Positions 18,093 to 25,401 of a stretch of 34,178 bases of DNA are shown here, piece after piece. The notes below the pieces were generated by a model, which worked only from the letters and a program-made list of their open reading frames with translations, did not search any database and was not told the origin of the DNA. The position numbers were made by a program, and so were the translations under genes. Source of the stretch: an uncultured Methanobrevibacter sp. (GTDB lineage: Archaea > Methanobacteriota > Methanobacteria > Methanobacteriales > Methanobacteriaceae); assembly GCF_902764455.1 (NCBI RefSeq), contig NZ_CACWVY010000025.1, positions 1 to 34,178 of the forward strand, read 5' to 3'. The stretch's first letter is position 1; every line of letters begins with the position of its first letter.

Positions 18093-18707
18093 ATGGATGA
18101 CAAAATATTAGAAGGTACAACAACCGTCGGAATTACTTGTAAAGATGGAGTTGTATTTGCAAGCGAAAGAAGAGCTAGTATGGGAAATTTAGTAGCTCAC
18201 AAAGTCGCAGAAAAAATATTTAAAATTGACGATCATATTGTAACAACCATAGCTGGTTCTGTTGGAGATGCACAAAGCTTAATGAAAGTTATTGAAGCAG
18301 AAGTATCATTATACCAAATGAGAAACAATGATGCAATAAGTGTAAAAGCAGCCGCATCCTTAACAGCAAACATATTACGTTCCGGACCAATGTATGTTCA
18401 AACATTACTTGGTGGAATGGATGGAGACAAACCATCTCTTTACTCTTTAGACCCTGCTGGAGGTATGATTGAAGATACATACATATCTACCGGATCAGGT
18501 TCCATCGTTGCTTACGGTGTTCTTGAAGACAGATTTAGAGATGATTTGACAACTGATGAAGGAATTGAAATAGCTATAAGAGCTATCAGAGCTGCTGCTG
18601 AACGTGACACATATTCCGGAAACGGATATTTAGTTGCCAAAGTAGATAAAGACGGCTTTGAAATGTTAGATAATGAAAAAATTAATGCAGTTTTGGATAA
18701 GATATAA
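18093..18707 (+). CDS. psmB: Proteasome subunit beta
   Basis: This is the catalytic beta subunit of the archaeal 20S proteasome, 204 residues as expected. An 8-residue propeptide ends at G8, and autocleavage would expose T9 as the N-terminal nucleophile. E25 and K41 correspond to mature positions 17 and 33, completing the active site. GSGS (about 137-140) and the late SGNG segment are further family marks. GAGGTG gives a strong ribosome binding site. The alpha subunit is not in this window. An inverted repeat and T-run follow the stop before fttA. Confidence 0.96.
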   Translation: MDDKILEGTTTVGITCKDGVVFASERRASMGNLVAHKVAEKIFKIDDHIVTTIAGSVGDAQSLMKVIEAEVSLYQMRNNDAISVKAAASLTANILRSGPMYVQTLLGGMDGDKPSLYSLDPAGGMIEDTYISTGSGSIVAYGVLEDRFRDDLTTDEGIEIAIRAIRAAAERDTYSGNGYLVAKVDKDGFEMLDNEKINAVLDKI

Positions 18708-18740
18708 AGCAAAAGACAATTTTTCATAACTAACTATTTT

Positions 18741-18832
18741 TTTATATAATAATGTGTACATAGTTTATGAAATTCAACTAATTATAGCTAAATGCTTTTC
18801 ATAAACTATAATTAATACACATAACTTTTTTT
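18741..18832 (+). promoter_or_regulatory. fttA promoter with a 13-bp inverted repeat and T-run
   Basis: TTTATATAAT at 18741-18750 fits a TATA box. Just after it, ATAGTTTATGAAA (18760-18772) and TTTCATAAACTAT (18797-18809) are perfect 13-bp reverse complements around a 24-base loop. Outer arms ATGTGTA (18752-18758) and TACACAT (18816-18822) add 7 bp across a small bulge. Seven T residues follow at 18826-18832, and then the GAAGGGAT ribosome binding site. With that TATA box, transcripts would start near 18770, inside the left arm. The dyad could then be a DNA operator for fttA. A psmB read-through transcript would instead fold it as a hairpin plus T-run terminator. Either reading may be right. 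Confidence 0.6.
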
Positions 18833-18843
18833 GAAGGGATTAT

Positions 18844-20757
18844 ATGACTTCAGATATTTTAGAGAATATTAAAAAGGAGATTTTGCAAAAGCTACCTGAT
18901 GAAATTCAAGTTTCAAAAGTTGAATTTGAAGGACCTGAAGTGGTAGTTTATACCAAAAATCCAGAAATTATAACTGAAAACGGTGACTTGATAAGGTCAC
19001 TTGCAAAAGAACTTAGAAAAAGGATTATCATTAGATCTGATAAAAGTGCATTACTTGAACCTGAAAAAACTATTGAAAAGATTCATGAAATAGTTCCTGA
19101 AGGTGCTGAAATCACTGATATTTATTTTGATACTGTTACCGGTGAAGTGGTGATTACCGCTAAAAAACCAGGACTTGTTATTGGAAAATATGGAGTAACC
19201 TCCAGAAATATTGTAAAAAATACCGGATGGGCGCCTAAAATTTTAAGAACCCCTCCAATCAGTTCAGACATAATCGGAAAAATAAGAACTATTCAAAAAA
19301 ACAGCAGCAAAGAAAGAAAGAAAATGTTGCAACGCCTCGGACGTCAAATCCATCAGGGAAGTAAATATCCTAATGACTGGGCAAGAGTTACTTCAATGGG
19401 AGGATTTAAAGAAGTTGGACGTTCATCTATGCTTTTACAAACACCTAACAGCCGTGTCTTACTAGACTGTGGTGTTAATGTAGCTGCATCAGATAATAAA
19501 AATGCGTTTCCTTATCTTAATGCACCTGAATTTTCAATCGAAGAATTAGATGCAGTTATTATTTCTCACGCACACTTAGATCACTGTGGATTTGTACCAT
19601 ACCTTTATCATTATGGATATGAAGGACCTGTTTATTGTACAACTCCAACCAGAGATTTAACTACATTACTTCAATTTGATCATTTGGATATCGCCCACAG
19701 AGAAGGCAATCCTTTACCATTTACATCAAAACATGTAAAACAAGCAATTAAAAATACCATCACATTAGATTATGGAGAAGTAACAGATATTTCCCCAGAT
19801 ATTAGATTAACATTGCATAATGCAGGCCACATTCTTGGTTCCGCAATATCTCACATGCACATTGGTGATGGAGCACACAACCTTGTTTATACTGGAGATT
19901 TCAAATACGAACCATCAAGATTACTTGAACCTGCAACAATCAGATTCCCTCGTGCTGAAACCGTAATTATGGAAAGTACCTACGGTGGAAGGGAGGATGT
20001 GCAACCTTCAAGAAATAATGCTGAAAAAGAAATGATGAAAACCATTTACAAGACACTTAAACGTGGCGGAAAAGTTTTAGTTCCAGTATTTGCAGTAGGA
20101 AGGGCACAGGAACTTATGGTAGTATTGGAAGAATACATGAGACACGGATTAATAGAAGAAGTGCCTATCTACATTGACGGAATGATTTGGGAAGCAACCG
20201 CAATTCATACAGCAAGACCTGAATATTTAAGTAAAGATTTAAGAGACCAAATATTCCATATGGGCAGAAATCCATTCGTTTCAGACATGTTTAAAAAAGT
20301 TCAAAATATTGACCAAAGAAAAGAGATTGTTGAAAGCCAGCAACCTGCAATCATTTTATCCACTTCCGGTATGTTAACCGGAGGTAATTCTGTAGAATAC
20401 TTCAAATGGTTATGTGAAGATGAAAGAAACACATTAATATTTGTTGGATATCAGTCTGAAGGTTCAATGGGTAGAAGAGTTCAAAAAGGCTGGAAAGAAA
20501 TTCCTCTTGAAGATGATGATGGTAGAATTAGACAATTCTGCGTAAAAATGCAAGTTAAAACCATCAACGGATTCAGTGGACACTCAAACAGAAGACAATT
20601 AATGGAGTACGTTAAAAGACTCAATCCTAGACCTGAAAAAGTTATTACATGCCATGGTGACCCTTACAAAACCGTGGACTTGGCTTCTTCAATTCACAGA
20701 AGTTATAAAATTGAAACAAAAACTCCAATTAATTTAGACTGTGTGAGAATTCATTAA
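18844..20757 (+). CDS. fttA: FttA/aCPSF1, archaeal transcription termination ribonuclease
   Basis: FttA (aCPSF1) is the beta-CASP ribonuclease that cleaves nascent RNA behind RNA polymerase and terminates transcription at U-rich tracts. The 637-residue protein has two N-terminal KH-like domains (about 1-70 and 75-145, with the GxxG-type PGLVIGKYG at 109-117). A metallo-beta-lactamase domain holds HAHLDH at 242-247, the zinc ligands, and further histidines in AGHILGS. A beta-CASP cap starts near 395, and the C-terminal part contains GFSGHSNR and ITCHGD. All catalytic motifs look intact. Start ATG 18844 follows GAAGGGAT. Its promoter region carries an unusual long inverted repeat ending in a T-run, a possible site for feedback. 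It is followed by purM with its own promoter. Confidence 0.96.
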
Positions 20758-23121: not shown

Positions 23122-25401
23122 ATGAAACTTAAAAACTCTTATATCTTATTAATAGTAATGTCAATATTCCTATTGATAAGTATTGGATCTGTTTGTGCTA
23201 GCGATGCTGCAATGGATGCAGATATCCTATCAGCTGATGACGGATCTGTTGATGTCCTTTCAGACAATGGTACAAATGAAGGCGCATCACCAAAAGCTAC
23301 AAGTGTAGTTTCTAATGATGTAACAATCAACGAAAAAGAAACTGCGAAAATTCCAGTAACTGTAAAAGACAATGAATCTCAGACTGTAAATATTAAAACC
23401 GGAGATTTGAATGTTACTGAAGGAAGTAAAGTTATAAAATTTAATTATGCTAATGACAGTGTCATTTTAACTGAAAATTTAACTGCTGGAAATCACAGCA
23501 TAATAATTAAATTTTTAGGTAATGCAAATTACACAAGTTCACAAACTACAATGAAATTATCAGTAATTGGTGAAAAAATTATTGATGCAGCTAATGCTAA
23601 TGTAAATTCAACTAAAAAAGCAGTAGTACCTATCAAAATAACTGATGGCGTTACTGTATATGACATAGACAAAGATAAAATATCTTTGGTTGCATCATAT
23701 AAAGACGGAAATAATACAATTACTAAAGCGATAGATAATTTTGAACTTATTAATAAAGCACTACACTTTGACTATCCTTTTGATGTTACAGGTAATTTAA
23801 CAATAAATTATGCTGAAAATAAAACATTGACTAAAACTATTACAATCAATAGAATTTACAATGTTAAAATTATTGTATTAAATAAAGAAACAGATTATTC
23901 TGTAGGCAATCTTACATTCCAAATTTTTGATATTGATAATAACCTTGCAGTTTTACCAAATAAAACTATTTCAGTATCAGGAATGAAAAATACAACCCAA
24001 CTCACTTGGATTACCCGTAATAGTGGCGGAAGTATGAGTATCAGTACTAACAAAGAATTTACAAGTGATAAAAATGGTATCGTCACAATCCCAAATGAGG
24101 ATTTCTATCCTGGATACATCTTTGCTAACTACGTATATTGTCCTGCAGGAACTTATTCATTAACATTAACAGGTTCTAAAGACGTTAAAGGAACTAATAA
24201 AACAGATATTATTATTAACAAAGCATCAATAAACATTGTTATCAATCCATACAAAGAACATTACGGATCAACCAAACAAGTAGTTATTGATGTAACAAAT
24301 GCTAAAACTGGAGATGGAATGTCCGGAGTTATTCTCCATTTATACATGGCAAATACTACTGCAAAAGATTATTATTTCCAAACTGACGATAATGGAACCA
24401 GTAAAATTAATGTATCCGGTTTAGTACCAGGAGATTATGCTTTAACAGTTAGTAACAATGATACTACTGACATTAACAAAAAAAGCGTTGATGGAAAAAT
24501 AACCATTTTACCAACTGAGGTTAAAATGACAGTAAATGTCCCATCATCCATCTATTACAATACTGGAAATACTGCCACAATAAAGATTACCAACAAAAAA
24601 ACTGGTGAAATTGTTCCTAATGCAATTGTTTTAGTTACAATTCAGACTGGAAGCAAAAAACAGAATTACCTTTATCAAGCAAATGCAAAAGGTGTTATAA
24701 CTGTTAATTATGCTCCGGCAGCAGTTGGAAGTCATAAAATAATTGTACAAATGGCAGATACAAGATATGATGCAGCTAAAGTATCAAAATCATATACTGT
24801 TAAAAAAGCTAGTGGAAAAATTTCAGCTCCTAAAGTAACTACATACTACAAAGCTGGAAAATCATTCGTCATACGCTTATATAACACTAAAAATAAAAAA
24901 CCGATTTATGCTGCTAAGCTTAATGTGAAAATATTCATCTCAAGCAGCAGATATTACAATTACAACGGTCAAACCGGATTAGACGGTAAATTAAGAATTT
25001 CACTTGATACATTTAACCCAGGAACTTACAAAGTCGTAGTTTCCCAAGGTGAAAAGAAAAACTTTACCGCTAAACAGGTTACTTCCCAATTTGTGATTAA
25101 AAAGACTACAGCAAAATTAACTCCTGCGAAAGTAACTGCTAAAAAAGGTGCAAGCAAATACTTTAAAGTTACTGTTAAAAACACCAAAACCAAAAAAGTT
25201 GTTTCATCAGGAGTTAAAATAAAAATGAAAGTTTACACAGGTAAGTCTTATAAAACTTACACTGCAAAAACCAATTCAAAAGGAATTGCACAATTAAATG
25301 TAAAATCCTTAAAAGTCGGAACTCACAAAGTTATTGTAAGCTCTGGAGATAAATACGTATCAGCTAAATCTGCTACATCAAGCATAAAAATAACAAAATA
25401 A
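23122..25401 (+). CDS. Secreted adhesin-like protein with tandem Ig-like repeats
   Basis: This 759-residue protein has a Sec signal peptide (basic MKLKN, hydrophobic 8-22, probable cleavage after A26). A low-complexity acidic linker follows. The mature part is all-beta. The C-terminal half holds four tandem Ig-like domains of about 90-95 residues (about 370-465, 468-560, 565-660, 665-759), each with a K-T-G/K-K turn, a GxxxIxxxxL-type strand and a PGTYKVxVS-like closing strand. There is no membrane anchor. The last domains are very lysine-rich, which would suit ionic contact with the pseudomurein wall. Such adhesin-like proteins are numerous in Methanobrevibacter and are thought to mediate contact with bacteria, protozoa or host, but the ligand is unknown. 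AAGGAGGA gives a strong ribosome binding site. The gene interrupts otherwise housekeeping neighbours. Confidence 0.85.
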   Translation: MKLKNSYILLIVMSIFLLISIGSVCASDAAMDADILSADDGSVDVLSDNGTNEGASPKATSVVSNDVTINEKETAKIPVTVKDNESQTVNIKTGDLNVTEGSKVIKFNYANDSVILTENLTAGNHSIIIKFLGNANYTSSQTTMKLSVIGEKIIDAANANVNSTKKAVVPIKITDGVTVYDIDKDKISLVASYKDGNNTITKAIDNFELINKALHFDYPFDVTGNLTINYAENKTLTKTITINRIYNVKIIVLNKETDYSVGNLTFQIFDIDNNLAVLPNKTISVSGMKNTTQLTWITRNSGGSMSISTNKEFTSDKNGIVTIPNEDFYPGYIFANYVYCPAGTYSLTLTGSKDVKGTNKTDIIINKASINIVINPYKEHYGSTKQVVIDVTNAKTGDGMSGVILHLYMANTTAKDYYFQTDDNGTSKINVSGLVPGDYALTVSNNDTTDINKKSVDGKITILPTEVKMTVNVPSSIYYNTGNTATIKITNKKTGEIVPNAIVLVTIQTGSKKQNYLYQANAKGVITVNYAPAAVGSHKIIVQMADTRYDAAKVSKSYTVKKASGKISAPKVTTYYKAGKSFVIRLYNTKNKKPIYAAKLNVKIFISSSRYYNYNGQTGLDGKLRISLDTFNPGTYKVVVSQGEKKNFTAKQVTSQFVIKKTTAKLTPAKVTAKKGASKYFKVTVKNTKTKKVVSSGVKIKMKVYTGKSYKTYTAKTNSKGIAQLNVKSLKVGTHKVIVSSGDKYVSAKSATSSIKITK

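Follow-up and report, generated by a model that had tools for sequence, protein, structure and literature searches.

Introduction

FttA terminates transcription throughout archaeal genomes and is considered essential. In E. coli, rho is controlled by attenuation in its leader. The bacterial nuclease RNase E reads the leader of rne in mRNA decay. Autoregulation has also been noted for Rho in B. subtilis (PMC12350095) and, by way of the rne 5' UTR, for RNase E (PMC10989929). PCF11 autoregulates by premature cleavage and termination (PMC6458999). For FttA, also named aCPSF1, the KH domains bind U-tracts and cleavage occurs downstream (PMC8716108, PMC7515710); such U-tracts are the terminators read by FttA (PMC8716108). 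No report of FttA/aCPSF1 autoregulation or level control was found in the open-access literature, to which the search was confined.

Herein, the leader of fttA from an uncultured Methanobrevibacter sp. is analyzed in a window of 34,178 nt, the whole stretch of contig NZ_CACWVY010000025.1 under study. The leader shares with the published FttA/aCPSF1 U-tract terminators (PMC8716108, PMC7515710, PMC11616081) a U-rich tract at the positions that FttA reads; those terminators are located at gene 3' ends, whereas the fttA tract is located in a 5' leader, at the Shine-Dalgarno (SD) sequence and beside a covarying hairpin. The likeness to Rho is that of a global termination factor restricting its own expression, the feedback being a proposal in the present case. 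Rho works as a helicase on rut sites; FttA, by contrast, is a ribonuclease whose sites are U-tracts, and the one in this leader is located at the SD behind a conserved hairpin. RNase E is comparable as a nuclease whose gene carries a structured 5' UTR acting in cis; that system is bacterial and concerns mRNA decay, whereas FttA would also terminate transcription, and the two have no sequence relation. PCF11 is comparable as a termination and 3'-end factor that attenuates its own gene through early cleavage and termination, but it does so in vertebrates at an intronic poly(A) site with no leader hairpin, and PCF11 is not itself the nuclease.

Inverted repeat between psmB and fttA

The fttA gene starts with the ATG at 18844 and was identified as aCPSF1 by TIGR03675 (E 5e-303); its product contains the KH_TffA (Pfam PF17214) and Beta-Casp domains. 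The perfect 13-bp inverted repeat that an earlier note on this DNA had pointed out downstream of psmB was found in place, followed by the seven T residues, the GAAGGGA ribosome binding site, and the start codon (Table 1). Outer arms of 7 bp (18752-18758/18816-18822) had also been described. They are present, but the conserved outer stem is limited to 5 of the 7 bp, and the two further outer pairs are unconserved.

When the 136-nt psmB-fttA intergenic region was shuffled, a perfect 13-bp repeat appeared in 9 of 5000 shuffles. The window contains one other such repeat, within a coding sequence, and 0.22 are expected per shuffled window. A chance origin of the dyad upstream of fttA is unlikely. 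The RNA fold of the intergenic region has an energy of -19.1 kcal/mol (z = -3.3).

The single other perfect repeat of the window (23436/23503) lies inside the coding sequence (23122-25401) of a 759-aa adhesin-like protein, which contains Ig-like repeats and apparently a signal peptide.

Table 1 Genes and leader features at the fttA locus, with positions in the window.
Feature	Position	Strand	Basis
psmB, proteasome beta subunit, upstream of fttA on the same strand	18093..18707	+	TIGR03634
Conserved upstream block AATTTTTCATAACTAACTATTTTTTTATATAA	18718..18749	+	Near-invariant in genus alignment
Outer stem, 5' side (GUGUA)	18754..18758	+	Paired with 18816-18820 in 98.6% of cells (58 distinct sequences)
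Main stem, 5' side, 13 bp	18760..18772	+	Pairing in 98.8% of cells; both sides changed in 9 of the 13 pairs
Conserved asymmetric bulge AACUAAUUAU running into AGC	18776..18788	+	Mostly unpaired in fold
Small apical hairpin AGC-UAAAU-GCU	18786..18796	+	Pairing in 81% of cells; double changes in all 3 pairs
Main stem, 3' side	18797..18809	+	Inverted repeat and structure alignment
Outer stem, 3' side (UACAC)	18816..18820	+	Partner of 18754-18758
U7 tract touching the SD; predicted FttA KH-binding site 18827-18832	18826..18832	+	Conservation, site geometry
Ribosome binding site GAAGGGA, with an FttA cut predicted after U18840	18833..18839	+	Sequence; PMC11616081 rule
fttA (aCPSF1), termination ribonuclease	18844..20757	+	TIGR03675; KH_TffA, Beta-Casp

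Conservation of the hairpin in Methanobrevibacter

Regions upstream of fttA were gathered from the genus (Methanobrevibacter), the family, and the order. All alignable Methanobrevibacter leaders have a common architecture, which consists of the block CTAATTTTTCATAACTAACTATTTTTTTATATAA, the hairpin, and then ACUUUUUUUGAAGGGAUUAU-AUG. The hairpin follows a shared plan: the outer stem is GUGUA/UACAC, the main stem measures about 13 bp, the bulge AACUAAUUAU is on one side only, and the loop contains a small apical hairpin with the arms AGC/GCU (18786-18788/18794-18796). The loop hairpin, the conserved bulge, and the conserved upstream block are absent from the earlier note. The bulge, AACTAATTATAGC in the window, is conserved through indels in the flanking sequence of the alignments. 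FttA binding does not explain this conservation, and the bulge is a possible recognition site.

The hairpin was found in 59 distinct Methanobrevibacter sequences, one per genome and always upstream of fttA, so that it is in fixed association with a single downstream gene. A covariance model built from 40 sequences gave one plus-strand match per genome, at fttA, in 37 of 41 Methanobrevibacter genomes. Among the four misses, fttA itself was not found in one (G002) and was truncated by the contig end in two (G027 and G035); the fourth (G029) has a diverged hairpin (L067/L096). Weak minus-strand matches represent the same fttA site in reverse. No convincing match was obtained with the model in other genera, and none of 4227 Rfam families matched the leader up to E 1. 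It is a conserved structured archaeal leader, probably part of the mRNA, that is absent from Rfam. A wider regulon was considered and rejected, the hairpin model and the upstream block giving no second site in the genome.

In one metagenome-derived genome (L058/L075), the upstream block and the left arm are gone, and the right arm and U-tract are kept; this is possibly a real deletion or an assembly error. A four-codon ORF (ATG AAA TTC AAC TAA, MKFN*, 18768-18782) spans the left arm and the bulge. A similar tiny ORF occurs in most relatives, with GTG starts included, has no SD, and is broken by indels in several. As a functional upstream ORF, MKFN* and its variants were rejected because the frame is broken or lengthened in some sequences and lacks an SD; it is probably a by-product of the stem.

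Evidence for selection of the hairpin as RNA

The dyad is kept among Methanobrevibacter and its arms contain compensatory changes, a pattern that the earlier note had proposed to look for. In a model-fitted alignment of the 59 matches, which is biased towards the structure, 96.3% of cells are paired and 13 of 21 pairs are changed on both sides, compared with a mean of 3.7 after shuffling. The double-change cells in this alignment number 38, against 6.8 in shuffles. When the partner is shifted by one base, pairing falls to 22-28%. A MAFFT-based alignment gave the same result in weaker form (5 double-change pairs versus 2.1 in shuffles). Conserved secondary structure with compensatory changes is one mark of a structured cis-regulatory RNA leader. 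These comparative data strongly support the conclusion that the fttA 5' leader is a structured cis-acting RNA element.

The types of mismatch were counted with Fitch parsimony, for which the tree was derived from the fttA coding sequences. The stems show 28 changes from Watson-Crick to G-U and 0 from Watson-Crick to A-C (50 versus 3 when counted as cells); within the main stem, G-U is seen and A-C is not. A DNA dyad would lose its symmetry equally by G-T and A-C, whereas RNA tolerates G-U only, so the type of mismatch is decisive. Third codon positions served as the coding-sequence control, with T>C at 0.118 and A>G at 0.072 per site. Since T>C is no rarer than A>G, a mutation bias does not account for the G-U excess. 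This pattern indicates that selection on the hairpin acts at the level of RNA from the fttA strand and not on a DNA operator, and the strand bias in turn implies that the hairpin is transcribed.

The earlier note had offered, as one half of its proposal, a DNA operator over the transcript start. A repressor-bound dyad at the fttA promoter, perhaps near the transcript start, would agree with a perfect inverted repeat near a TATA-like sequence. It is contradicted by the 28 to 0 count, which no mutational bias mimics, and by mismatch types that are not strand-symmetric as an operator dyad demands. The varying loop length, the covarying apical hairpin, and the lack of a second copy in the genome also stand against an operator, and this explanation is hardly tenable.

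Upstream block and the origin of the transcript

The upstream block starts 10 nt past the psmB stop; a U5 tract, a U7 tract, and a sequence resembling a TATA box are located within it. It is present in a single copy in the genome, even when 3 mismatches are allowed, and its spacing to the hairpin is fixed at 8-11 nt (ATAT to GTGT). The block may be a promoter, the psmB 3' end, or both. With the TATA-like TTTATATA (18741-18749) as TATA box, the transcript would begin within the left arm, at about 18771. This box was rejected as the origin of the hairpin RNA because its spacing is wrong and a start at that position would leave out the left arm. Such a start conflicts with the RNA evidence; therefore, either the promoter is further upstream or the hairpin is transcribed from psmB. 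As a TATA-like element, TTTTTCATA at 18720-18728 would fit the spacing. No marked enrichment of TTTTTCATA k-mers was found upstream of other genes.

Part of the block, UUUUCAUAACUAACUAU (18720-18736), resembles the right arm of the hairpin, UUUUCAUAAACUAU. Pairing of the left arm with the block in the style of an antiterminator was examined by alignment inspection and rejected, as no covariation supports it. The block keeps CAU in the clade in which the stem has changed to G-C, and the complementarity is lost in L066; both leave such pairing unsupported.

U-tract at the Shine-Dalgarno sequence

In 97 of 101 Methanobrevibacter leaders, at least seven U's in a row adjoin the SD, and the other four have CUAUUUUU. 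Over the 20 genera compared, which cover Methanobacteriales and one outgroup family, a U5-U9 run is found at the SD in 17. The genera without a run of at least 5 are g2 and g3, and the outgroup g20 has U4. Control genes (n = 211) were taken from 400 kb of the relative G028 together with the window; runs of at least 5 at the SD occur in 6 of them (2.8%) and runs of at least 7 in 2 (0.9%). The U-tract part may date back to the order Methanobacteriales or beyond.

The tract persists at the SD in genera in which psmB is 380-560 nt away, which indicates that it is tied to fttA rather than to the end of psmB. This result bears on the possibility that the upstream U5/U7 block, the hairpin, and the U7 together end the psmB transcript or control its read-through. 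The 10-nt distance of the block from psmB and its two U-tracts, U-tracts being FttA terminators (PMC8716108), speak for such a role. The persistence of the tract far from psmB speaks against it, and structure of this kind is not expected to be conserved in ordinary terminators. A terminator placed 11 nt ahead of the fttA start would stop transcripts of fttA as well and thus would still act on fttA. We consider a psmB terminator very improbable.

Hairpins of unrelated sequence lie just upstream of the U-tract in L111 of g6 (GUGUAAAA/UUUUACAC, z -3.6) and in g19 (CAGUAAAC/GUUUACUG, z -2.2 to -3.7). The hairpins of g8, g11, g12, g13, g15, and g17 are individually weak (z -0.4 to -1.6); convincing ones are confined to g1, L111 of g6, and g19. 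The U-tract is present with no hairpin in g18, and neither the U-tract nor a comparable leader is present in g2 and g3. These absences indicate that the full arrangement is not needed for FttA function.

Two genera have leaders of other kinds. The most diverged FttA (65-71% identity) is found in g3 (L137-L143, L189, L190), together with GAGAGAGUGAU-like ribosome binding sites and no U-tract or hairpin. In g10 (L127-L131), the last 60 nt before the fttA start contain a different conserved leader, ATTTTATACCATATGCTAATTTTATACGTCTATTTTTCGAAGTGATAAT, with the direct repeat ATTTTATAC and no hairpin.

The maintenance of structure while the sequence drifts, exemplified by L111, L067, and L179 with their distinct stems, would agree with a hairpin that only sets message stability or translation, as a 5' protective stem-loop or a fixed setting without feedback. 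This would leave the conserved U-tract at the SD and the conserved bulge unaccounted for, and we regard it as decidedly unlikely.

Fit of the leader to the published FttA site

In the structure of the pre-termination complex, the optimal site has U at -1 and a U-rich stretch from -9 to -14 of the cut 3' end, and the cut is made 22 nt behind the growing RNA end (PMC11616081). By this rule, U occupies -1 and every position from -9 to -14 in 55 of 59 leaders. The fitting residues in the window are U18827-U18832 and U18840, and the predicted cut falls between the SD and the AUG. Among the 211 control genes, 2 fit as well at no more than 5 nt from the start codon. The fit is largely a by-product of a U-tract that adjoins the SD and is not independent evidence. 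Two U4 tracts have been called the minimum for efficient aCPSF1 binding (PMC8716108). The U7 provides one U4 and three U's, and further tracts are located upstream in 18718-18749. FttA is recruited near promoters in Saccharolobus (PMC8448881), and the same paper cites aCPSF1 as able to terminate complexes at +54.

Proposed autoregulation by FttA

The RNA structure, the U-tract at the SD, and the match to the FttA site are consistent with an attenuator or autocleavage element. These comparisons strengthen the other half of the earlier proposal, an attenuator at which FttA would end its own transcripts or those reading through from psmB. In the proposed mechanism, the bulged hairpin (18754-18820) would present a single-stranded U7 directly adjoining the SD, and FttA in excess would bind it via the KH domains. 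FttA would then cut about 9 nt downstream, in either the nascent or the finished leader, and the cut would separate the ribosome binding site from the message. An RNA polymerase still near (about 22 nt downstream) would be released by the cut. FttA would thereby cap its own level. The hairpin may keep the U-tract open, pause the polymerase, protect the 5' end, or bind a partner at the bulge.

The inferred parts of this mechanism are the identity of the ligand as FttA, cutting or termination by FttA at this site in cells, and a negative effect. Negative autoregulation, with FttA binding the U7 and cutting or terminating its own mRNA, is in our judgment evenly balanced between being right and being wrong.

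Archaeal Sm-like proteins bind U-rich RNA. The same leader could be under another regulator, such as an RNA-binding protein, a small RNA, or a ligand, acting at the bulge AACUAAUUAUAGC, with the U-tract as an Sm-like site or translation enhancer. The affinity of Sm-like proteins for U-rich RNA, the conservation of the bulge through flanking indels, which a mere spacer would not show, and the separability of hairpin and U-tract in g18 all favor such a regulator. The occurrence of the element only at fttA suggests a regulator specific to this gene, and a general enhancer should be common, yet T7 at the SD is found in just the two control genes. We judge another regulator to be unlikely, though worth serious attention.

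Significance

A covarying RNA element that is found only at fttA and ends in the target sequence of FttA itself provides a direct route to the question of feedback. It is conceivable, and we hold it as a tentative view, that the termination factor governs itself via a dedicated leader by cutting its own message between the ribosome binding site and the start codon, as an archaeal counterpart of rho and PCF11. If this is true, self-limitation of a termination factor would exist in archaea, besides bacteria and eukaryotes.
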